The notes under the pieces were generated by a model. The model ran no database searches, was not told the DNA's origin, and saw nothing but the letters and a program-made list of their open reading frames with translations. 64,000 nt of DNA from Labia minor (Eukaryota > Arthropoda > Insecta > Dermaptera > Spongiphoridae), in the NCBI GenBank assembly GCA_963082975.1, contig OY720350.1, forward strand, positions 7,707,488 to 7,771,487, in the 5' to 3' direction. The position numbers were made by a program, and so were the translations under genes. Below are positions 50,475 through 64,000 of this stretch, piece after piece. Numbering within the stretch: position 1 is the stretch's first letter; each line of letters begins with the position of its first letter.

Positions 50475-50478
50475 TATA
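50475..50478. repeat. Target-site duplication, left copy (TATA)
   Basis: TATA immediately before the TG end of the element. Taken once with the right flank, it restores the satellite sequence TTATTATATATCATTCT exactly. Because the flanks are alternating A/T, a 5-bp ATATA reading is possible if the LTR is taken one base shorter, but TG...CA ends favour four bases. Confidence 0.88.
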
Positions 50479-50994
50479 TGTAGGGAATTTCGTTGTCTAG
50501 GGGTTGTTTAGCAAAAAATATCTGTTTTGTTTAAATGGTTGCAAAAATATCGTTTTATTGAATAAAGATGAACAAGATAAAAATACAGTGTAAAAATAAA
50601 TGAAAATGTAACTTCTTCGTTTCTTGAATACTTCTGGCGATGTACAAAGGACTGTAAAGTGTCGACTGTAAAAACTATAAAACTAAAACTTAAACTGAAA
50701 CTGTACAACTAAACTCGAATCGTGTCCGTGTCCTTTTTAAAAGGAAGTCCAAACAGCTGGAACTCGGTTGCTATTGGTCGGTGGCGTGGAGTGGGAGAAT
50801 GGCGGCGACGGTGATGGTAGCGCATGGTGGGGAGGCGGCGACGGCGTCTGGGGCGCTCGCTGCTTGGAGCGGCGTTGAGAGGAAGCACCAACTCCGATGA
50901 TATTGTGGTTGAGAATGGCCGACCCTGAGGCAGTAAGATGTGCCAGGCTTTTGATGATTCGGACGGTGATGAGCCAAAAGGCTCCATTCCCACA
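50479..50994 (-). repeat. 3' LTR (516 bp)
   Basis: This is the downstream LTR in the element's reading direction, from 50994 to 50479, identical by eye to the 5' LTR. It supplies the polyadenylation signal and also coding sequence: the second ORF crosses its edge at codon 200 and uses about 285 bp of it before stopping at 50709-50711. The bases just before it on the minus strand (...GCAGGACGGCCGAA) are only moderately purine-rich, so the polypurine tract is not obvious. Confidence 0.95.
50554..50559 (-). terminator. Polyadenylation signal AATAAA in the 3' LTR
   Basis: The minus strand reads TTCAATAAAACG about 75 bp before the LTR end, a normal position for the R-U5 part of an LTR. The same hexamer is in the 5' LTR at 54103-54108. 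It is the only canonical signal downstream of the ORFs that I noted within the LTR. Confidence 0.6.
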
Positions 50995-51593
50995 TTCGGC
51001 CGTCCTGCGATGTATTCGGCCTCGAATACGTTAATCTTCTTTTCCTTATCTCTCCACTTCGCCTTCGTTTTTCGATATTTATCGATTTTTTTCTTCACGT
51101 AAAATAGTATATCTTGTGATTTGGATAAATCATTTATGCCTGTTTCTAAATTTAAATCCACATTAAAATCTTCATTTTCTTTATTTAAAACACTATCTTC
51201 AGTTTCAACTTTACTTGCAGTTTGTGTTTTATCATTATCGTTAGAACTTTCTTCTTTAATTTCGTCTAATTTTAAAAGGACATTTGCTAAATTTAATTTT
51301 GCTTCTTTATTTTCTTCATTTGCTTGTTTTTCATAAATCACTTTTGCCAATTTTAAAACTTTCCAGGCGAATTTTAAATTAGTAACGTCATCTTCTTCAC
51401 TGTCTTTCTCACCATCTTCACTTTCAGGCATTGTTTCATCAAGATAAAACATTTTATCATTGGGATCAATCTCTTCTTCACGAATTGTTTTATTTCGATC
51501 TTCTGAAGTGCTTTCATCCTTATCAACTTCCATTGATTCATCGTCATTAACTTTATCCTCTTCATTAACTTCACTTTCGGTCTTTTTTTTCAT
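50709..51593 (-). CDS. NASP-like segment with LTR-encoded Arg-rich tail (second ORF or frameshift product)
   Basis: The ORF has 294 codons. Residues 1-69 are very acidic. Residues about 66-115 (EEDDVTNLKFAWKVLKLAK... and KEAKLNLANVLLKLDEIKEES) closely resemble the NASP/SHNi tetratricopeptide repeat that follows the acidic stretch in that histone H3 chaperone family. After about 116 the resemblance fades into an Asp/Glu/Asn-rich stretch and a basic segment (KKKIDKYRKTKAKWRDKEKK, 167-186). Codon 200 straddles the LTR edge; residues 201-294 are encoded by the 3' LTR and include Arg/His-rich runs (RPRRRRR and HHRRRH, 248-265). It overlaps the Gag-protease ORF by 23 bp in the +1 frame. An internal ATG exists, but independent translation is unproven; it may be made by frameshifting, or be the rear half of an ORF broken by an indel. 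No polymerase or envelope motif is present. Confidence 0.75.
   Translation of the reverse strand: MKKKTESEVNEEDKVNDDESMEVDKDESTSEDRNKTIREEEIDPNDKMFYLDETMPESEDGEKDSEEDDVTNLKFAWKVLKLAKVIYEKQANEENKEAKLNLANVLLKLDEIKEESSNDNDKTQTASKVETEDSVLNKENEDFNVDLNLETGINDLSKSQDILFYVKKKIDKYRKTKAKWRDKEKKINVFEAEYIAGRPNVGMEPFGSSPSESSKAWHILLPQGRPFSTTISSELVLPLNAAPSSERPRRRRRLPTMRYHHRRRHSPTPRHRPIATEFQLFGLPFKKDTDTIRV
51249..51398 (-). other. NASP/SHNi-TPR-like segment (residues 66-115 of the second ORF)
   Basis: The pattern DDVTNLKFAWKVLKLAKVIY, then KEAKLNLANVLLKLDEIKEES, follows the NASP family pattern of an acidic stretch, then NLQLAWEMLDLAK-type helix and KEAQLYAAQAHLKLGEV-type helix. NASP binds and stores histone H3-H4. 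Only about one TPR pair is recognisable, so full chaperone function is unlikely from this fragment alone. Confidence 0.72.
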
Positions 51594-53664
51594 TATCAGT
51601 CGTTAGAGATTCTTTATCTTCATTCTTTTCTTCTTTGACTTGCTCTTTATCAGTCTCTCCTTTTTTATTAGATTCTTTCTTTTCAGTCTCTTCTTTTTTA
51701 TCAGATTGTTTCTTATCAGTCTCTTCTATTTTCTCCGATTCTTTCTTTTCAGTTTCTTCTTCTTTTTCAATTACTTCTTTCTTTTCTGGTTCTTCTTCTT
51801 TTCCTACCTCCATCTTTTCATTTTCACTCTCTTCTTTCTTCTTCTCTTCAGAAGAGGGCTCTTTTTCTTCTTTAACTTCTGGTTTGGTTTCTTCTGCCTT
51901 TTTCACATCTTTTTCCTCTTTAGTTGTTTCTTTTTCTTTTGGTGTTTCATCTTTTTTTTCTATGGATTCATTTACTTTAGCTTCTTTCGTATCAATTTTC
52001 TCTGTTTTCTTTTTAGTTTGGGATTCTGTTATATTGTTTAAAGTGAGTTTTTCACTATCCTCTTCCTGTATCTTGTTTATGTATAGAGAAAGATTCGTCT
52101 CTGTTGAACTTTTTATCTCGGTGTTCATTATCTCTGTTTCTTCGGTTATCTTCTTTAAAGTTATTCCTTGGGGACTTAATGTTGTTTCAGCTTGTACTAG
52201 GAGATCACTACCGATGATGACTGGTTCATTTATTACTTCTGACGGGACAACATGAATTGGAACATCATAGCTGGATGAGTCAATTATGATTGGTGTCTGG
52301 AAGTATCCTAATGGTTGAATTTTAACTTTTCCTAGTCCGGTGAACACTTTTTTGGACTCTGTGAGGTCGGGATGGTTTATTTCATGCCATGCCGATTCGC
52401 TGACTAATGTTGCACAGGCTCCGGTGTCGATTAATGCTTTCATATGGTACCCGTTAAGCTGGATGTTTTTATGGTAATTTGTTTCACCATGATATGACAC
52501 AATGTTGATATTTCTGTTTATGGACTTTTTCGGGCATTGAGGTGACTTGTGCCCAAATTCGTTGCAACTGAAGCACTTAGTCCCTTTGTCTTTGAATGGA
52601 CATGTATTTGTCGAGTGTTGTGGGTCCCCACAATTGTAACATCGTGTTTTTATGACTGGCTTTGTTGATCTGATCTGGTTGGGTTTTTGTTCTTCCTGTC
52701 TTCTGGCGGGTGTAACCAATTCTTGAGGTTTTGTTTTTCTCATTCGAGCGCATATTTTAATTTTGCGCTTGAAAACCTCTAAACTAGATGCATCATGCAA
52801 GAACATTTTCTGGTTTGGATCAGGTATTCCATTTATGACGTAATCCATCAAGACCTGATCGCTTGCATTTACTTGATTTGCCAATTCTTTCATTCGTAGA
52901 TAATAAGCAAAGGCGTCTTCATTTTTCTCTATCATGGAGTTTCCGAGTTGTCTGAAAATGTCCGCTGCGTTAACTTTTTCAGAAAATTCTTTTAGCAGAA
53001 TACTTTTGAGCTTCTTCCAGGAGTTTATATTTTGTTCACTGTCCACCAAAGTTTTTGCTAAGCCTTGAATTGATCGTTTGGCAAGTATCAGCACGTGTCT
53101 GTCGTCCAAATCGTAGAGTGAAGCGGCTTCGTCGATTTCAGTGACCCATTTATTGATTGGATACTTGGTTGATCCATCGTATTTCTTAATTGTTGATTCG
53201 ATGTCTTGTATTTGGACGTGTCTTCTGTAGTTGTTATGACTCGGTATAGGTTGTTCGGTTCGTGTGCTTCGAGCCGGAGAATGAACTATTTCCAGTTCTT
53301 CTTCTTCTTCTTCTTCATCATCATCTTCTTCTTCTTCTTCTTCATCATCATCTTCGTCCAGTGTACATAACCAAGATAGGATTTTACCTCTAATTAGTTC
53401 GTCGCTGTCTTGCTCAGGAAGATTGAGTATATTAGATGTTTGACGTAGTTGCTTACTGGATAGTTTTTCCGTTAATTCTTCATTTTTTTTCTCATATTCT
53501 TCAGAACCTTCAACAAAGTTGAACCCTTCAAAGTTGAGTAGGGTTTTTCTATTGAGGTGGCATGTTGCGTCACCGGTTATTATTGTTTTTAGTCCTTTCA
53601 ATTCATATGGTTTGGCTTCAATGATGTTTTTTGCGATTTTTGTAAAATCAACCAATTTCACCAT
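51571..53664 (-). CDS. gag-pro: Gag-protease polyprotein with DEK-like N-terminus and Glu/Lys-rich tail
   Basis: The ORF has 697 codons. Residues about 21-100 resemble the SAF/SAP-box region of DEK, with the FxGFxFxxGSxxYxKK pattern at 45-60 and a following helix-rich part ending near SWL (97-99). An almost uninterrupted Asp/Glu run fills 103-124. Residues about 150-310 look like a retrotransposon capsid domain (NKWVTEIDEA at 171, KEDAF-like NEDAFAYYLRMKEL near 248-261). Two CCHC zinc knuckles follow: C342/C345/H350/C355 and C364/C367/H372/C377. The aspartic protease has LIDTGA at 411-416 and VIIGSDLL at 482-489. From about 531 to the stop the chain is Glu/Lys-rich with degenerate repeats and no polymerase. 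The start ATG (53662-53664) has a good context (AAGATGG). The TGA stop lies 20 bp past the start of the next ORF, in another frame. Confidence 0.92.
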   Translation of the reverse strand: MVKLVDFTKIAKNIIEAKPYELKGLKTIITGDATCHLNRKTLLNFEGFNFVEGSEEYEKKNEELTEKLSSKQLRQTSNILNLPEQDSDELIRGKILSWLCTLDEDDDEEEEEEDDDEEEEEEELEIVHSPARSTRTEQPIPSHNNYRRHVQIQDIESTIKKYDGSTKYPINKWVTEIDEAASLYDLDDRHVLILAKRSIQGLAKTLVDSEQNINSWKKLKSILLKEFSEKVNAADIFRQLGNSMIEKNEDAFAYYLRMKELANQVNASDQVLMDYVINGIPDPNQKMFLHDASSLEVFKRKIKICARMRKTKPQELVTPARRQEEQKPNQIRSTKPVIKTRCYNCGDPQHSTNTCPFKDKGTKCFSCNEFGHKSPQCPKKSINRNINIVSYHGETNYHKNIQLNGYHMKALIDTGACATLVSESAWHEINHPDLTESKKVFTGLGKVKIQPLGYFQTPIIIDSSSYDVPIHVVPSEVINEPVIIGSDLLVQAETTLSPQGITLKKITEETEIMNTEIKSSTETNLSLYINKIQEEDSEKLTLNNITESQTKKKTEKIDTKEAKVNESIEKKDETPKEKETTKEEKDVKKAEETKPEVKEEKEPSSEEKKKEESENEKMEVGKEEEPEKKEVIEKEEETEKKESEKIEETDKKQSDKKEETEKKESNKKGETDKEQVKEEKNEDKESLTTDNEKKDRK
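51583..51590 (-). other. A8 run at the frame junction between the two ORFs
   Basis: On the coding strand eight consecutive A residues lie between GATAATG and GACCG, inside the 23-bp overlap. Gag-protease is in the frame of 53664 and the second ORF in the +1 frame. Removing a single A from the run would bring the two into register, and both sides have the same acidic Lys/Glu-rich character. This suggests either a one-base insertion in a formerly continuous ORF, or slippage by polymerase or ribosome. It is not the usual -1 arrangement of gag-pol elements. Confidence 0.75.
53365..53604 (-). other. DEK-like domain within Gag (residues 21-100)
   Basis: The match is by motif, not by search. DEK proteins carry a GFPFEKGS-type pattern followed by YKKK and a helical SAP-like part; here residues 45-60 read FEGFNFVEGSEEYEKK, followed by KLSSKQLRQTSNILNLPE and KILSWL with equivalent spacing. 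An acidic run follows, as in animal DEK. DEK binds chromatin and DNA and acts with histones. Ordinary retrotransposon Gag proteins do not carry this domain, so capture from a host gene is the simplest reading. Confidence 0.72.
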
Positions 53665-53705
53665 CTTGAATATATTTTTATTTCTTTAAACTTTACTGTA
53701 TTAAA

Positions 53706-53975
53706 TCTTGTATTTTCTTTCTTGCTGATTATTCACAAAAAAAGAATCTTGAAAGTGAATAAGTTTTCAATCTTAAATCTTGTATCGTTTCCTTGACAAT
53801 TATTCACAAAAATCTTGACAGTAAATAAATCTTCAATCTTGAATCTTGTATCTTTTTCTTAAGAATTATTCACAAAAATCTTGAAAGTGAATAAGACTTG
53901 AATCTTGAATCTTGTATCTTTTCTTGAAGATTATTCACATAAAATCTTGAGAGTGAATAAGTCTAGGAATCTTCT
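53706..53975 (-). repeat. Four imperfect 66-bp repeats with hairpin arms in the 5' leader
   Basis: Units start with TCTTGTAT at 53706, 53778, 53844 and 53910 (spacing 72, 66, 66 bp). Each contains TTATTCAC and then GTGAATAA, an 8-bp inverted pair: 53729-53736 with 53755-53762, 53866-53873 with 53887-53894, and 53931-53938 with 53953-53960; in the second unit one arm is degenerate (GTAAATAA). They lie between the primer site and the Gag start, so they would be in the 5' untranslated RNA. A packaging or translation role is possible but not shown. The remaining bases of the 363-bp leader hold nothing I recognise. Confidence 0.82.
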
Positions 53976-54005
53976 TTTGCCCGAACGATAAACGAGTTGT
54001 TTTCA

Positions 54006-54024
54006 ATCACGGACTGAGCCTCCA
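54006..54024 (-). promoter_or_regulatory. Candidate tRNA primer-binding site
   Basis: Three bases inside the 5' LTR, the minus strand reads TGGAGGCTCAGTCCGTGAT. It starts with TGG as expected for pairing with a tRNA CCA end. It resembles the tRNA-Pro primer site TGGGGGCTCGTCCGGGAT used by many retroelements but has an extra A and two substitutions, so the tRNA identity is tentative. Confidence 0.65.
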
Positions 54025-54027
54025 ATT

Positions 54028-54543
54028 TGTAGGGAATTTCGTTGTCTAGGGGTTGTTTAGCAAAAAATATCTGTTTTGTTTAAATGGTTGCAAAAATATC
54101 GTTTTATTGAATAAAGATGAACAAGATAAAAATACAGTGTAAAAATAAATGAAAATGTAACTTCTTCGTTTCTTGAATACTTCTGGCGATGTACAAAGGA
54201 CTGTAAAGTGTCGACTGTAAAAACTATAAAACTAAAACTTAAACTGAAACTGTACAACTAAACTCGAATCGTGTCCGTGTCCTTTTTAAAAGGAAGTCCA
54301 AACAGCTGGAACTCGGTTGCTATTGGTCGGTGGCGTGGAGTGGGAGAATGGCGGCGACGGTGATGGTAGCGCATGGTGGGGAGGCGGCGACGGCGTCTGG
54401 GGCGCTCGCTGCTTGGAGCGGCGTTGAGAGGAAGCACCAACTCCGATGATATTGTGGTTGAGAATGGCCGACCCTGAGGCAGTAAGATGTGCCAGGCTTT
54501 TGATGATTCGGACGGTGATGAGCCAAAAGGCTCCATTCCCACA
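54028..54543 (-). repeat. 5' LTR (516 bp)
   Basis: In the element's direction this begins at 54543 (TGTGGGAATGGAGCC) and ends at 54028 (AATTCCCTACA). By eye it is identical to the other LTR at a constant offset of 3,549 bp. Its first half is G+C-rich and CpG-rich, in sharp contrast to the 20% G+C satellite around it; its second half is AT-rich. Transcription of the element would start here. A TATA-like box and a downstream insect-type initiator candidate are noted separately. Small ORFs inside it look incidental. Confidence 0.95.
54284..54291 (-). promoter_or_regulatory. TATA-like box in the 5' LTR
   Basis: TTTTAAAA lies at the boundary between the G+C-rich and AT-rich halves of the LTR, within CCTTTTAAAAAGGAC. 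A TTAGT motif about 30 bp downstream and a TCAGT motif about 40 bp downstream could serve as an insect-type initiator. The identical site in the 3' LTR is at 50735-50742. This is motif evidence only. Confidence 0.45.
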
Positions 54544-54547
54544 TATA
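54544..54547. repeat. Target-site duplication, right copy (TATA)
   Basis: TATA directly follows the CA end of the element and is then followed by TCATTCT, the normal continuation of the monomer. Four-base duplications at alternating A/T targets are known for insect gypsy-group elements such as 17.6 and 297. Confidence 0.88.
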
Positions 54548-57500
54548 TCATTCTCTTCCATTTTTGGTCCTAATCAAGAATTAATTCATATTTTATCGAT
54601 ATCATAATTTTTTTCATTAATTTCATCGAAAAAACCTCAATTTGTAATATTTTTTCACGCAAAAAGCTACTTTTTTAAATAAAAATGTAAAATTTATTTA
54701 TTATATATCATTCTGTTCCATTTCTGGTCCTAATCACGAATTAATTAATATTTTATCGATATCATAATTTATTTCATTAATTTCATCGAAAAAACCTCAA
54801 TTTGTAATATTTTTTCACGCAAAAAGCTACTTTTTTAAATAGAAATTTAAAATTTATTTATTATATATCATTCTCTTCCATTTTTAGTCCTAATCAAGAA
54901 TTAAATCATATTTTATCGATATCATAATTTTTTTCATTGATTTCATCTAAAAAACCAGGATTTCTCATATTAATTGACTCAAAAAGCAATTTTTTAAATA
55001 AAAATGTAAAATTTATTATTATATATCATTCTGTTCCATTTCTGGTCCTAATCACGAATTAATTCATATTTTATCGATATCATAATTTTTTTCATTGATT
55101 TCATAGAAAAAACCAGGATATCTCATATTAATTCAATCAAAAAGCTACTTTTTTAAATAAAAATGTAAAATTTATTTATTATATTTCATTCTGTTCCATT
55201 TCTGGTCTTAATCAAGAATTAATTCATATTTTATCGATATCATAATTTTTTTCATTAATTTCATCGAAAAAACCTCAATTTGTAATATTTTTTCACGCAA
55301 AAAGCTACTTTTTTAAATAAAAATGTAAAATTTATTTATTATATATCATTCTGTTCCATTTCTGGTCTTAATCACGAATTAATTCATATTTTATCGATAT
55401 CATAATTTTTTTCATTAATTTCATCGAAAAAACTTCAATTTGTAATATTTTTTCAAGCAAAAAGCTACTTTTTTAAATAAAAATGTAAAATTTATTTATT
55501 ATATATCATTCTTTTCCATTTCTGGTCCTAATCACGAATTAATTCATATTTTATCGATATCATAATTTTTTTCATTAATTTCATCGAAAAAACCTCAATT
55601 TGTAATATTTTTTCACGCAAAAAGCTAATTTTTTAAATAGAAATGTAAAATTTATTTATTATATATCATTCTCTTCCATTTCTGGTCCTAATCACGAATT
55701 AATTCATATTTAATCGATATCATAATTTTTTTCATTGATTTCATAGAAAAAACCAGGATTTCTCATATTAATTCACTCAAAAAGCTAATTTTTTAAATAA
55801 AAATGTAAAATTTATTTATTATATATCATTGTCTTCTATTTCTGGTCCTAATCAAGAATTAATACATATTTTATCGATATCATAATTTTTTTCATTGATT
55901 TCATAGAAAAAACCAGGATTTCTCATATTAATTCAATCAAAAAGCTACTTTTTTAAATAAAAATGTAAAATTTATTTATTATATATCATTCTGTTCCATT
56001 TCTGGTCTTAATCAAGAATTAATTCATATTTTATCGATATCATAATTTTTTTCATTAATTTCATCGAAAAAACCTCAATTTGTAATATTTGTTCACGCAA
56101 AAAGCTACTTTTTTAAATAAAAATGTAAAATTTATTTATTATATATCATTCTGTTCCATTTCTGGTCTTAATCACGAATTAATTCATATTTTATCGATAT
56201 CATAATTTTTTTCATTAATTTCATCGAAAAAACTTCAATTTGTAATATTTTTTCACGCAAAAAGCTACTTTTTTAAATAAAAATGTAAAATTTATTTAGT
56301 ATATATCATTCTGTTCCATTTCTGGTCTTAATCACGAATTAATTCATATTTTATCGATATCATAATTTTTTTCATTAATTTCATCGAAAAAACTTCAATT
56401 TGTAATATTTTTTCACGCAAAAAGCTATTTTTTTAAATAGAAATGTAAAATTTATTTATTATATATCATTCTGTTCCATTTCTGGTCCTAATCACGAATT
56501 AATTCATATTTTATCGATATCATAATTTTTTTCATTGATTTCATCGAAAAAACCAGGATTTCTCATATTAATTCAATCAAAAATGTACTTTTTTAAATAA
56601 AAATGTAAAATTTATTTATTATATATCATTCTCTTCCATTTTTGGTCCTAATCAAGAATTAATTCATATTTTATCGATATCATAATTTTTTTCATTAATT
56701 TCATCGAAAAAACCTCAATTTGTAATATTTTTTCACGCAAAAAGCTACTTTTTTAAATAAAAATGTAAAATTTATTTATTATATATCATTCTGTTCCATT
56801 TCTGGTCCTAATCACGAATTAATTCATATTTTATCGATATCATAATTTATTTCATTAATTTCATCGAAAAAACCTCAATTTGTAATATTTTTTCACGCAA
56901 AAAGCTACTTTTTTAAATAGAAATTTAAAATTTATTTATTATATATCATTCTCTTCCATTTTTAGTCCTAATCAAGAATTAAATCATATTTTATCGATAT
57001 CATAATTTTTTTCATTGATTTCATCGAAAAAACCAGGATTTCTCATATTAATTCAATCAAAAATGTACTTTTTTAAATAAAAATGTAAAATTTATTTATT
57101 ATATATCATTCTGTTCTATTTCTGGTCCTAATCAAGAATTAATTCATATTTTATCGATATCATAAATTTTTTCATTAATTTCATCGAAAAAACCTCAATT
57201 TGTAATATTTTTTCAAGCAAAAAGCTACTTTTTTAAATAGAAATTTAAAATTTATTTATTATATATCATTCTGTTCCATTTCTGGTCCTAATCAAGAATT
57301 AATTCATATTTTATCGATATCATAAATTTTTTCATTAATTTCATCGAAAAAACCTCAATTTGTAATATTTTTTCAAGCAAAAAGCTACTTTTTTAAATAG
57401 AAATGTAAAATTTATTTATTATATATCATTCTCTTCCATTTCTGGTCCTAATCAAGAATTAATTCATATTTTATGATATCATAATTTTTTTCTTTGATTT

Positions 57501-60500
57501 CATAGAAAAACCCAGGATTTCTCATATTAATTCAATCAAAAAGCTACTTTTTTAAATAAAAATGTAAAATTTATTTATTATATATCATTCTGTTCCATTT
57601 CTGGTCTTAATCAAGAATTAATTCATATTTTATCGATATCATAATTTTTTTCATTAATTTCATCGAAAAAACCTCAATTTGTAATATTTGTTCACGCAAA
57701 AAGCTACTTTTTTAAATAAAAATGTAAAATTTATTTATTATATATCATTCTGTTCCATTTCTGGTCTTAATCACGAATTAATTCATATTTTATCGATATC
57801 ATAATTTTTTTCATTAATTTCATCGAAAAAACTTCAATTTGTAATATTTTTTCACGCAAAAAGCTACTTTTTTAAATAAAAATGTAAAATTTATTTAGTA
57901 TATATCATTCTGTTCCATTTCTGGTCTTAATCACGAATTAATTCATATTTTATCGATATCATAATTTTTTTCATTAATTTCATCGAAAAAACTTCAATTT
58001 GTAATATTTTTTCACGCAAAAAGCTATTTTTTTAAATAGAAATGTAAAATTTATTTATTATATATCATTCTGTTCCATTTCTGGTCCTAATCACGAATTA
58101 ATTCATATTTTATCGATATCATAATTTTTTTCATTGATTTCATCGAAAAAACCAGGATTTCTCATATTAATTCAATCAAAAATGTACTTTTTTAAATAAA
58201 AATGTAAAATTTATTTATTATATATCATTCTCTTCCATTTTTGGTCCTAATCAAGAATTAATTCATATTTTATCGATATCATAATTTTTTTCATTAATTT
58301 CATCGAAAAAACCTCAATTTGTAATATTTTTTCACGCAAAAAGCTACTTTTTTAAATAAAAATGTAAAATTTATTTATTATATATCATTCTGTTCCATTT
58401 CTGGTCCTAATCACGAATTAATTCATATTTTATCGATATCATAATTTATTTCATTAATTTCATCGAAAAAACCTCAATTTGTAATATTTTTTCACGCAAA
58501 AAGCTACTTTTTTAAATAGAAATTTAAAATTTATTTATTATATATCATTCTCTTCCATTTTTAGTCCTAATCAAGAATTAAATCATATTTTATCGATATC
58601 ATAATTTTTTTCATTGATTTCATCGAAAAAACCAGGATTTCTCATATTAATTCAATCAAAAATGTACTTTTTTAAATAAAAATGTAAAATTTATTTATTA
58701 TATATCATTCTGTTCTATTTCTGGTCCTAATCAAGAATTAATTCATATTTTATCGATATCATAAATTTTTTCATTAATTTCATCGAAAAAACCTCAATTT
58801 GTAATATTTTTTCAAGCAAAAAGCTACTTTTTTAAATAGAAATTTAAAATTTATTTATTATATATCATTCTGTTCCATTTCTGGTCCTAATCAAGAATTA
58901 ATTCATATTTTATCGATATCATAAATTTTTTCATTAATTTCATCGAAAAAACCTCAATTTGTAATATTTTTTCAAGCAAAAAGCTACTTTTTTAAATAGA
59001 AATGTAAAATTTATTTATTATATATCATTCTCTTCCATTTCTGGTCCTAATCAAGAATTAATTCATATTTTATGATATCATAATTTTTTTCTTTGATTTC
59101 ATAGAAAAAACCAGGATTTCTCATATTAATTCACTCAAAAAGCTAATTTTTTAAATAAAAATGTAAAATTTATTTATTATATATCATTGTCTTCTATTTC
59201 TGGTCCTAATCAAGAATTAATACATATTTTATCGATATCATAATTTTTTTCATTGATTTCATAGAAAAAACCAGGATTTCTCATATTAATTCAATCAAAA
59301 AGCTACTTTTTTAAATAAAAATGTAAAATTTATTTATTATATATCATTCTGTTCCATTTCTGGTCTTAATCAAGAATTAATTCATATTTTATCGATATCA
59401 TAATTTTTTTCATTAATTTCATCGAAAAAACCTCAATTTGTAATATTTGTTCACGCAAAAAGCTACTTTTTTAAATAAAAATGTAAAATTTATTTATTAT
59501 ATATCATTCTGTTCCATTTCTGGTCTTAATCACGAATTAATTCATATTTTATCGATATCATAATTTTTTTCATTAATTTCATCGAAAAAACTTCAATTTG
59601 TAATATTTTTTCACGCAAAAAGCTACTTTTTTAAATAAAAATGTAAAATTTATTTAGTATATATCATTCTGTTCCATTTCTGGTCTTAATCACGAATTAA
59701 TTCATATTTTATCGATATCATAATTTTTTTCATTAATTTCATCGAAAAAACTTCAATTTGTAATATTTTTTCACGCAAAAAGCTATTTTTTTAAATAGAA
59801 ATGTAAAATTTATTTATTATATATCATTCTGTTCCATTTCTGGTCCTAATCACGAATTAATTCATAATTTATCGATATCATAATTTTTTTCATTGATTTC
59901 ATCGAAAAAACCAGGATTTCTCATATTAATTCAATCAAAAATGTACTTTTTTAAATAAAAATGTAAAATTTATTTATTATATATCATTCTCTTCCATTTT
60001 TGGTCCTAATCAAGAATTAATTCATATTTTATCGATATCATAATTTTTTTCATTAATTTCATCGAAAAAACCTCAATTTGTAATATTTGTTCACGCAAAA
60101 AGCTACTTTTTTAAATAAAAATGTAAAATTTATTTATTATATATCATTCTCTTCCATTTTTGGTCCTAATCAAGAATTAATTCATATTTTATCGATATCA
60201 TAATTTTTTTCATTAATTTCATCGAAAAAACCTCAATTTGTAATATTTTTTCACGCAAAAAGCTACTTTTTTAAATAAAAATGTAAAATTTATTTATTAT
60301 ATATCATTCTCTTCCATTTCTGGTCCTAATCACGAATTAATTCATATTTTATCGATATCATAATTTATTTCATTAATTTCATCGAAAAAACCTCAATTTG
60401 TAATATTTTTTCACGCAAAAAGCTACTTTTTTAAATAGAAATTTAAAATTTATTTATTATATATCATTCTCTTCCATTTTTAGTCCTAATCAAGAATTAA

Positions 60501-63500
60501 ATCATATTTTATCGATATCATAATTTTTTTCATTGATTTCATCGAAAAAACCAGGATTTCTCATATTAATTCAATCAAAAATGTACTTTTTTAAATAAAA
60601 ATGTAAAATTTATTTATTATATATCATTCTGTTCTATTTCTGGTCCTAATCAAGAATTAATTCATATTTTATCGATATCATAAATTTTTTCATTAATTAA
60701 ATCGAAAAAACCTCAATTTGTAATATTTTTTCAAGCAAAAAGCTACTTTTTTAAATAGAAATTTAAAATTTATTTATAATATATCATTCTGTTCCATTTC
60801 TGGTCCTAATCAAGAATTAATTCATATTTTATCGATATCATAAATTTTTTCATTAATTTCATCGAAAAAACCTCAATTTGTAATATTTTTTCAAGCAAAA
60901 AGCTACTTTTTTAAATAGAAATGTAAAATTTATTTATTATATATCATTCTCTTCCATTTCTGGTCCTAATCAAGAATTAATTCATATTTTATGATATCAT
61001 AATTTTTTTCTTTGATTTCATAGAAAAACCCAGGATTTCTCATATTAATTCAATCAAAAAGCTACTTTTTTAAATAAAAATGTAAAATTTATTTATTATA
61101 TATCATTCTGTTCCATTTCTGGTCTTAATCAAGAATTAATTCATATTTTATCGATATCATAATTTTTTTCATTAATTTCATCGAAAAAACCTCAATTTGT
61201 AATATTTGTTCACGCAAAAAGCTACTTTTTTAAATAAAAATGTAAAATTTATTTATTATATATCATTCTGTTCCATTTCTGGTCTTAATCACGAATTAAT
61301 TCATATTTTATCGATATCATAATTTTTTTCATTAATTTCATCGAAAAAACTTCAATTTGTAATATTTTTTCACGCAAAAAGCTACTTTTTTAAATAAAAA
61401 TGTAAAATTTATTTAGTATATATCATTCTGTTCCATTTCTGGTCTTAATCACGAATTAATTCATATTTTATCGATATCATAATTTTTTTCATTAATTTCA
61501 TCGAAAAAACTTCAATTTGTAATATTTTTTCACGCAAAAAGCTATTTTTTTAAATAGAAATGTAAAATTTATTTATTATATATCATTCTGTTCCATTTCT
61601 GGTTCTAATCACGAATTAATTCATATTTTATCGATATCATAATTTTTTTCATTGATTTCATCGAAAAAACCAGGATTTCTCATATTAATTCAATAAAAAA
61701 TGTACTTTTTTAAATAAAAATGTAAAATTTATTTATTATATATCATTCTCTTCCATTTTTGGTCCTAATCAAGAATTAATTCATATTTTATCGATATCAT
61801 AATTTTTTTCATTAATTTCATCGAAAAAACCTCAATTTGTAATATTTTTTCACGCAAAAAGCTACTTTTTTAAATAAAAATGTAAAATTTATTTATTATA
61901 TATCATTCTGTTCCATTTCTGGTCCTAATCACGAATTAATTCATATTTTATCGATATCATAATTTATTTCATTAATTTCATCGAAAAAACCTCAATTTGT
62001 AATATTTTTTCACGCAAAAAGCTACTTTTTTAAATAGAAATTTAAAATTTATTTATTATATATCATTCTCTTCCATTTTTAGTCCTAATCAAGAATTAAA
62101 TCATATTTTATCGATATCATAATTTTTTTCATTGATTTCATCGAAAAAACCAGGATTTCTCATATTAATTCAATCAAAAATGTACTTTTTTAAATAAAAA
62201 TGTAAAATTTATTTATTATATATCATTCTGTTCTATTTCTGGTCCTAATCAAGAATTAATTCATATTTTATCGATATCATAAATTTTTTCATTAATTTCA
62301 TCGAAAAAACCTCAATTTGTAATATTTTTTCAAGCAAAAAGCTACTTTTTTAAATAGAAATTTAAAATTTATTTATAATATATCATTCTGTTCCATTTCT
62401 GGTCCTAATCAAGAATTAATTCATATTTTATCGATATCATAAATTTTTTCATTAATTTCATCGAAAAAACCTCAATTTGTAATATTTTTTCAAGCAAAAA
62501 GCTACTTTTTTAAATAGAAATGTAAAATTTATTTATTATATATCATTCTCTTCCATTTCTGGTCCTAATCAAGAATTAATTCATATTTTATGATATCATA
62601 ATTTTTTTCTTTGATTTCATAGAAAAAACCAGGATTTCTCATATTAATTCACTCAAAAAGCTAATTTTTTAAATAAAAATGTAAAATTTATTTATTATAT
62701 ATCATTGTCTTCTATTTCTGGTCCTAATCAAGAATTAATACATATTTTATCGATATCATAATTTTTTTCATTGATTTCATAGAAAAAACCAGGATTTCTC
62801 ATATTAATTCAATCAAAAAGCTACTTTTTTAAATAAAAATGTAAAATTTATTTATTATATATCATTCTGTTCCATTTCTGGTCTTAATCAAGAATTAATT
62901 CATATTTTATCGATATCATAATTTTTTTCATTAATTTCATCGAAAAAACCTCAATTTGTAATATTTGTTCACGCAAAAAGCTACTTTTTTAAATAAAAAT
63001 GTAAAATTTATTTATTATATATCATTCTGTTCCATTTCTGGTCTTAATCACGAATTAATTCATATTTTATCGATATCATAATTTTTTTCATTAATTTCAT
63101 CGAAAAAACTTCAATTTGTAATATTTTTTCACGCAAAAAGCTACTTTTTTAAATAAAAATGTAAAATTTATTTAGTATATATCATTCTGTTCCATTTCTG
63201 GTCTTAATCACGAATTAATTCATATTTTATCGATATCATAATTTTTTTCATTAATTTCATCGAAAAAACTTCAATTTGTAATATTTTTTCACGCAAAAAG
63301 CTATTTTTTTAAATAGAAATGTAAAATTTATTTATTATATATCATTCTGTTCCATTTCTGGTCCTAATCACGAATTAATTCATAATTTATCGATATCATA
63401 ATTTTTTTCATTGATTTCATCGAAAAAACCAGGATTTCTCATATTAATTCAATCAAAAATGTACTTTTTTAAATAAAAATGTAAAATTTATTTATTATAT

Positions 63501-64000
63501 ATCATTCTCTTCCATTTTTGGTCCTAATCAAGAATTAATTCATATTTTATCGATATCATAATTTTTTTCATTAATTTCATCGAAAAAACCTCAATTTGTA
63601 ATATTTGTTCACGCAAAAAGCTACTTTTTTAAATAAAAATGTAAAATTTATTTATTATATATCATTCTCTTCCATTTTTGGTCCTAATCAAGAATTGATT
63701 CATATTTTATCGATATCATAATTTTTTTCATTAATTTCATCGAAAAAACCTCAATTTGTAATATTTTTTCGCGCAAAAAGCTACTTTTTTAAATAAAAAT
63801 GTAAAATTTATTTATTATATATCATTCTGTTCGATTTCTGGTCCTAATCACGAATTAATTCATATTTTATCGATATCATAATTTTTTTCATTAACTTCAT
63901 CGAAAAAACCTCAATTTGTAATATTTTTTCACGCAAAAAGCTACTTTTTTAAATAAAAATGTAAAATTTATTTATTATATATCATTCTCTTCCATTTCTG
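54544..64000. repeat. 160-bp satellite array, right arm
   Basis: The same satellite resumes directly after the retrotransposon and runs to the window edge. The monomer broken at 50478 (...TTATTATATA) continues as TATATCATTCT, so the register is kept and only four bases are duplicated. The same two monomer haplotypes and single-base variants occur as in the left arm, for example the 159-bp form near 57470, 59070, 61000 and 62590. Nothing other than satellite is visible here. The array is cut by the window end at 64000. Confidence 0.98.

Follow-up and report, generated by a model that had tools for sequence, protein, structure and literature searches.

In a 64,000-nucleotide stretch of the Labia minor genome (assembly GCA_963082975.1, contig OY720350.1, positions 7,707,488 to 7,771,487; hereafter the window), we found a 4,065-bp long terminal repeat (LTR) element on the minus strand (50479-54543) that interrupts the 160-bp satellite filling the rest of the window. 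It is probably a helper-dependent, gene-capturing derivative of a Ty3/Gypsy-type LTR retrotransposon, in a line of descent running from an autonomous parent (class A) to a class with a NASP-derived part and no enzymes (class B, to which the window copy belongs) and on to a capsid-less class (class C). The original prediction, made from the letters of the window, had described a non-autonomous double chimera in satellite DNA, with DEK-like and NASP-like pieces around capsid, nucleocapsid, and protease. We confirmed both chromatin-protein matches in two minus-strand open reading frames (ORFs), ORF1 (697 amino acids, 51571-53664) and ORF2 (294 amino acids, 50709-51593), found no Pfam match to reverse transcriptase (RT; RVT), integrase (rve), or RNase H in either, and found 160-bp arrays on both sides (1-50478 and 54544-64000). 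The interval proposed for the element, 50709-53664, holds both ORFs but is too short, since the element extends from 50479 to 54543 with 516-bp LTRs and a 4-bp target-site duplication.

All parts of the window copy are read on the minus strand. The element ends in TGTGGG..CCTACA, its 5' LTR (516 bp, 54028-54543) and 3' LTR (516 bp, 50479-50994) are equal at 516 of 516 bases, and the two copies of the target-site duplication TATA lie at 54544-54547 and 50475-50478. ORF1 encodes the DEK-like pseudo-SAP/SAP domain (residues 3-101, 53362-53658, by hmmsearch profile against PDB), an acidic tract, a capsid part (Retrotrans_gag, residues 205-280, 52825-53052; E=1.3e-4, 22.5 bits, below the cut-off of 24.1), two CCHC zinc knuckles (52525-52644), an aspartyl protease with DTGA (52177-52467; gag-asp_proteas 1.9e-7 and RVP 1.1e-6, above cut-off), and the start of the NASP-derived part. 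One knuckle has a Pfam match of 18 bits, below the cut-off of 20.8; the pattern C..C...H....C occurs twice in the sequence, and PDB nucleocapsid chains match across both. The host-NASP-derived DNA (acidic/charged repeats and the second half of TPR2; 51258-52028, ends approximate) starts inside ORF1 at about 52028 and is carried on by ORF2 in another frame, the two ORFs together making up one captured piece. No class A RT-pattern site falls in the window copy, which therefore does not count as an autonomous LTR retrotransposon, that is, one with its own RT and integrase.

The NASP-derived part can be traced to its donor. ORF2 matches human NASP (7v1k) at E=2.9e-6 over residues 63-119; at the DNA level, it is about 90% identical to the host NASP gene over 300 bp. 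A scan of the 604-Mb genome for the SHNi-TPR signature gave a single locus, L041, with an uninterrupted frame of 701 amino acids; a search with its protein gave 201 matches among 1,259 candidates, and among the matches listed (the best 120) the named relatives include histone-binding proteins N1/N2 and NASP. On these matches L041 is confirmed as the host NASP gene. Its DNA is matched at 88-95%, in several pieces, by the charged terminus of ORF1 and the opening stretch of ORF2, and the class C copy L024 matches it at 85% over the longest piece, indicating that the NASP part is captured from the host's own NASP gene and takes the place of RT, RNase H, and integrase.

Compared with NASP (PMC9122598, in excerpt), the element has the charged region and the second half of TPR2 and is without TPR1, the rest of the TPR domain, the capping helix, and the C-terminus. 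The SHNi-TPR signature has no match in the element copies, its only match in the genome being the host gene, and Pfam finds no family in ORF2, so that the SHNi-TPR motif and complete TPR domain by which the NASP family is recognized are not seen there. When ORF2 by itself was used as a protein query, none of 847 candidates (proteins of 162-514 amino acids) matched. Human NASP binds H3-H4 through its TPR domain; its acidic region is dispensable for this but has been reported as required for H1 binding (PMC9122598, in excerpt). The NASP part of the element appears to be tolerated and is mostly in frame, but nothing shows a histone-chaperone role.

The DEK-like domain has a separate history. From a single sequence, the N-terminus of ORF1 matches the DEK structure 2jx3 at E=0.0022. 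We take the homology to be real because a profile of four retroelement N-termini (that of ORF1 and three from related proteins), run by hmmsearch against PDB, reaches human DEK (2jx3) over the whole domain at E=1.8e-16 and the DEK chains 9l1x and 8kcy at about 1e-15, the next match being at E=0.24. A protein search with ORF1 scored 8,000 candidates and returned four relatives (P0001-P0004). Three of them (P0001, P0002, and P0004) begin with the DEK-like domain, among them a Diabrotica undecimpunctata gag-pol protein with RT and integrase (P0002), and all six autonomous class A copies in the genome carry it as well. Because the class A parent and three of four relatives start with this domain, we regard it not as a capture by the window element but as an inherited N-terminal Gag part of the autonomous lineage, older in origin than the NASP part. 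Of the two captured host fragments originally proposed, then, the NASP fragment stands and the DEK-like fragment does not; a DEK-type DNA-binding domain is instead an inherited part of a retrotransposon Gag. A fresh capture from a host DEK gene was also considered and rejected, since the three DEK_C loci of the host (L042-L044), L043 with its DEK-like exon among them, yielded by tblastn no more than a single chance match (E=10).

The pseudo-SAP/SAP domain is full length in both DEK and the element, but DEK_C, the other mark of the DEK family, is absent from ORF1 and ORF2 in Pfam searches, and its genome matches are those three other loci. The SAP domain of DEK contacts the nucleosomal dyad and linker DNA (PMC12263440, in excerpt). 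Most of the nine DNA-contact residues described there are not conserved among the four elements: a basic residue stands at R107 and K124 in all four, at K125 in three, K144 in two, K111 and K158 in one, and R116, R153, and R168 in none; five of the nine positions are basic in the window copy. DNA binding by the domain is plausible, and DEK-type nucleosome binding is unproven.

To place the window copy among its relatives, we read 40 element loci, 8 from an initial DNA search (92 matches, with 40 of 435 candidates scored) and 15 and 17 fetched afterwards. Both LTRs are seen in 39 of them, comprising 6 class A, 16 class B, and 17 class C copies; L017, with one LTR seen in its stretch, was excluded. 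Class A elements are 5.5 kb long and carry one frame of 1,391-1,392 amino acids in all six copies. In the class A copy L018, Pfam finds RVT_1 and RT_RNaseH_2, then Integrase_H2C2 and rve. With the protease, which was Pfam-scanned in class B and aligned in class A, the order is protease-RT-RNase H-integrase, and TG..CA LTR pairs and short target duplications are found in 6/6 copies, as expected of a Ty3/Gypsy-type LTR element. Class A may be akin to the mdg3/micropia group. Class B elements (4.0-4.5 kb) have a single frame of 984-1,116 amino acids in 12 of 16 copies, unlike the window copy, which is split near the ORF1/ORF2 overlap, as is L008; L012 and L013 are broken within Gag. Class C elements (2.7-2.9 kb) consist of the DEK-like domain, NASP repeats, and a TPR remnant, without capsid, knuckles, or protease, and have one open frame of 532-581 amino acids in all 17 copies read.

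Pattern scans of the whole genome, allowing up to three mismatches and with 0 control matches in each, gave 74 NASP-tail sites, 85 DEK-like sites, and 6 RT sites. A DEK-like site lies upstream of every one of the 74 NASP-tail sites, which are spread over seven contigs; many copies thus share the two chromatin-protein-derived parts and the window copy is not unique, in line with the original prediction. The spacing between the two patterns is 1,004-1,352 bp at 58 sites and 2,459-2,858 bp at 16. The 16 long-spacing sites are class B copies, all of them read, and the 58 short-spacing sites comprise 17 that were read and 41 assigned to class C by spacing alone. Eleven DEK-like sites have no NASP tail, namely, the 6 class A copies and 5 others.

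The family is very young, as judged from its LTRs: 36 of 39 copies have an identical pair, and the other 3 pairs show a single mismatch. Target duplications of 4 bp flank 37 of 39 copies (TATA in 25). The exceptions are the neighbors L014 and L015 (G000:C2:88329800-88340600), adjacent class B copies at a distance of 3,632 bp, with ATAA in both outer flanks; they look like a tandem pair with apparently one shared LTR.

All three classes have in common the primer site, the leader, and the last 52 bp. In the window copy these are a probable primer-binding site 3 nt past the 5' LTR (54007-54024, called from its position and TGG start), a leader with 66-bp tandem repeats (53745-53964) that is matched in class A, B, and C copies, and a 52-bp segment shared with the 3' end of autonomous class A (50995-51046). 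The leader repeats, present in copies of all three classes, are possibly a packaging or translation signal. Moreover, sequence has passed between classes: the class A copy L018 and the class B copy L002 are identical over 997 aligned bases spanning leader, DEK-like domain, and capsid but drop to 86-88% identity in nucleocapsid-protease. L011, too, is a mosaic of A and B: its opening resembles class B, the sequence from there to about column 2,200 resembles class A, and the remainder is again of the B type. Classes A and B thus appear to recombine in the manner of co-packaged RNAs. A helper-dependent element is expected to share cis sequences with its autonomous partner and to form mosaics with it, and since A and B recombine and B and C have no enzymes, mobilization in trans by class A would be the best reading.

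The proposed history starts from a class A parent whose 5.5 kb would encode one polyprotein of 1,391 amino acids, comprising DEK-like domain, Gag, protease, RT, RNase H, and integrase. A coding piece of the host NASP gene would have replaced RT-RNase H-integrase, probably via template switching in reverse transcription, giving rise to class B. A second deletion, from the GAA-rich acidic tract after the DEK-like domain to the NASP repeats, would then have removed capsid, nucleocapsid, and protease and produced class C, with B arising before C. Having kept LTRs, leader, primer site, and 3' end, B and C would be packaged and copied by class A enzymes and would insert at TA-rich sites. The DEK-like domain, as an old Gag part, probably helps Gag or the pre-integration complex to hold DNA or nucleosomes. 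With donor, parent, and both products in one genome, the host-gene capture is most simply seen as a two-step event.

Whether the encoded proteins are under selection bears on what the captured part does. Against the host gene, the NASP part has a ratio of non-synonymous to synonymous change of 0.63-1.18 (ten haplotypes of 33 copies), and pairwise among haplotypes the ratio is 0.80; its residues appear to change near neutrally, on few synonymous changes and with wide error. Selection on the captured NASP part, which the original prediction had proposed to check, was therefore not borne out, and the SHNi-TPR signature is matched in the host gene alone. In the DEK-like domain, comparison of the window copy with the class C copy L024 gives 12 synonymous and 12 non-synonymous changes, a ratio of 0.25 (binomial 0.0019 against the site expectation), and from capsid to protease the ratio between the window copy and class A is about 0.29 (set of 20 copies, without L012 and L013). 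Spacings preserve the reading frame at 57 of 58 class C sites and at 12 of 16 in class B. In class C it is kept over 20 lengths that fall into 9 classes modulo 33, and the spacings often differ by 33 bp. The associated probability of 0.0026 is only a guide, since slippage of 33-bp and 3-bp repeats keeps the frame and the copies are related. Thus, the NASP amino acids seem to drift while the frame may be held, a combination that would fit a charged tether, in which charge and not sequence matters, or a frame open through youth.

Several observations weigh against the proposed history or narrow what it can claim. The DEK-like ratio of 0.25 comes from an unpolarized comparison that ignores mutation bias, and any purifying selection might be confined to the A/B branch; the ratio is 0.42 over all 13 haplotypes and again 0.42 between L004 and L024, and it reaches 1.2 between the window copy and the L004 type, owing to a block of changes at the extreme N-terminus. 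The fourth relative, P0003, starts downstream of the DEK-like domain and hence is silent on its presence. As the frame of the host NASP gene is uninterrupted, capture from mRNA and capture from DNA are indistinguishable, and some 210 bp on the 3' side of the NASP part match neither the class A copy L018 nor that gene. The A/B mosaics could also stem from gene conversion between genomic copies. Finally, the class C count includes the 41 copies assigned by spacing, and flanks with both LTRs were read for 39 of the 85 DEK-like sites.

A serious alternative for the class B and C proteins, although one against which we lean slightly, is that they do nothing and are passively carried, their frames being open through youth and through slippage units of 33 or 3 bp. 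The identical LTRs and the neutral-like NASP ratio agree with this, as do the four class B copies with broken frames, whose LTRs are nonetheless identical (three copies) or one base apart (one copy). In simulations of neutral change, a 345-nt host segment stayed free of stops in 23-66% of runs at 30 to 8 changes. The longer captured span of 906 nt, however, stayed open less often as changes accumulated (in 33% of runs at 20 changes, 12% at 40, and 1.5% at 80), so an open frame would be unlikely at high divergence. The 57 of 58 class C spacings in frame, the open frames in 17 of 17 class C copies fetched, and the 12 synonymous against 12 non-synonymous changes in the DEK-like domain likewise speak against a protein without effect.

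At the other extreme, the class C DEK-NASP protein might be a working chromatin factor, whose DEK-like domain would grip nucleosomal or cDNA ends and whose charged NASP region, with the Arg-rich LTR-encoded end, would draw off histones or place them on new cDNA or the target. If true, this role would give class C an advantage over its helper and would explain both its 58 copies against 6 and the frame kept in 57 of 58. We consider it unlikely.

The original prediction had gone further, suggesting as speculation that chromatin contacts might serve packaging, steer the element to heterochromatin or satellite DNA, or shield it from silencing. Some findings are in its favor: the DEK SAP domain binds nucleosomal dyad and linker DNA (PMC12263440, in excerpt), R107 and K124 are basic in all four retroelement N-termini and five of nine contacts in the window copy, and the window copy itself lies in satellite. 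Insertions, however, do not concentrate there. A blastn search over flanks of roughly 0.6-4 kb places the 160-bp satellite at one of the 40 element loci, that of the window itself. Within 600 bp on either side of the 39 copies, a long array is seen only at the window copy; the other 38 have short tandem repeats only, the next longest being about 350 bp, at L033. A 50-base satellite pattern has 9,796 sites in the genome, 338 of them in the window, which corresponds to about 1.74 Mb or 0.29% of the genome. From this share about 0.11 satellite insertions are expected among 39, an expectation that diverged units would raise, and 1 is observed. The preference is instead for (TA)n: a (TA)3 run is present at the empty site of 29 of 39 copies, compared with 270 of 3,354 background windows. 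The satellite unit contains a TA run, and the window copy sits in it. With sites that are TA-rich instead, NASP residues that drift, and no SHNi-TPR match in the copies, satellite targeting was rejected for the 39 of 85 DEK-like sites covered, and chromatin steering or shielding as a whole is quite unlikely.

It is highly doubtful, too, that the class C protein is an interfering Gag fragment that poisons or regulates class A, an idea drawn by analogy. Truncated Gag acts in this way on yeast Ty1, where capsid is the interfering part. A yeast restriction factor domesticated from a retrotransposon is reportedly on record (PMC10951436). Class C outnumbers class A by 58 to 6 and retains the N-terminal Gag domain in frame, but the part it keeps is not capsid, and copy numbers alone do not show interference. 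An artefact of chance similarity or chimeric assembly, which the weak single-sequence DEK match (E=0.0022) might have suggested, is refuted by the profile match at 1.8e-16, the same ordered parts at 74 sites on seven contigs, and the target duplications in 37 of 39 copies.

Non-autonomous, gene-capturing LTR elements with an autonomous partner are a known kind. Acute transforming retroviruses carry gag-onc fusions, in which host coding sequence stands in frame with a truncated gag and replaces pol; they are helper-dependent and infectious. The gag-host fusion is the same here, but the L. minor elements form a multi-copy genomic family with no env seen, and the fragment is that of a histone chaperone. 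Maize Bs1 and other gene-capturing LTR elements also hold captured host coding sequence within Gag-type coding; here the host gene is different, three classes coexist, and the DEK-like Gag domain has a separate, older origin. Terminal-repeat retrotransposons in miniature (TRIMs) have no coding capacity. Class C, with its open frame of 532-581 amino acids, differs from them and does not fall under TRIMs or large retrotransposon derivatives (LARDs), which are defined by that lack. PbTRIM of the harvester ant is likewise a small non-autonomous LTR element in an arthropod (PMC3532108, in excerpt).

A close parallel in its working is the wheat centromere pair RLG_Cereba and RLG_Quinta (PMC11302176, in excerpt), where, as here, an autonomous element and a derived non-autonomous partner share cis signals, Gag is present without enzymes, and the partner is cross-mobilized. 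Quinta has a DUF1 of unknown function, with no captured host gene named in the portion of that text available, whereas NASP was captured here; the integrase CR domain of the wheat elements targets CENH3 chromatin (PMC11302176, in excerpt), whereas we found no satellite bias; and a third, capsid-less coding class is the most numerous in L. minor. None of the titles and abstract openings listed by searches of the openly accessible literature describes a DEK-type Gag domain together with captured NASP, or the success of a capsid-less coding derivative. The system offers gene capture by an LTR retrotransposon nearly in the act, with donor, parent, first chimera, and second-step derivative in one genome at near-zero LTR divergence. 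As all stages are present together, it is testable whether captured chromatin genes help the element or are merely carried.

The NASP part and the 3' end are separated by about 210 bp (51047-51257, minus strand), a segment unmatched in L018 and in the host NASP gene and with a weak DUF4748 match (E=0.034). It is identical in 28 of 30 copies with its frame pattern, against 10 haplotypes in 33 copies for the adjacent NASP part, and shows no synonymous change among the copies compared. The segment is possibly a third captured piece or a cis signal; a third captured gene as its source was rejected, the Pfam and PDB matches being too weak. In a genome DNA search with the segment, the 40 candidates scored (of 128) all matched at a rounded 100%, which would have kept any more distant source from view.

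The open frame runs into the 3' LTR, which supplies its Arg-rich end and its stop. From element base 8, each LTR has an open frame starting MEPFGSSP or MELFGSS in 39 of 39 copies, 90-99 amino acids long, or 131 in the 479-bp LTR type. It forms the C-terminus of class B and C proteins and is Arg-rich in most copies whose end was printed, L014 being different.

In the NASP part, the 11-amino-acid K/E repeat is longer in the printed class C copies (L024-L040) than in the host gene. The region between DEK-like domain and TPR remnant measures 143-192 residues, mostly repeat, in five class C copies, and the extended repeat resembles a charged single helix. Integrase hits elsewhere include pig transcripts that bear the name NASP (PMC8303831, in excerpt); they come from another animal and were set aside.

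Among the remaining sites, five DEK-like ones (G000:C2:57738836, C5:21400154, C1:40785391, C1:68715473, and C1:68735867) lack both a NASP tail and the class A RT pattern and are perhaps older or divergent relatives. At G000:C5:65615651-65622060, four class C sites with an exact spacing of 2,121 bp and matching DEK-like sites form a tandem array, probably from LTR recombination, and class C may be becoming a satellite-like repeat there. The class B copies L012 and L013 (G000:C10, about 31 kb apart) are near-identical with the same flanks, probably through segmental duplication, and combine a broken Gag frame with what is, by eye, the most host-like NASP part.

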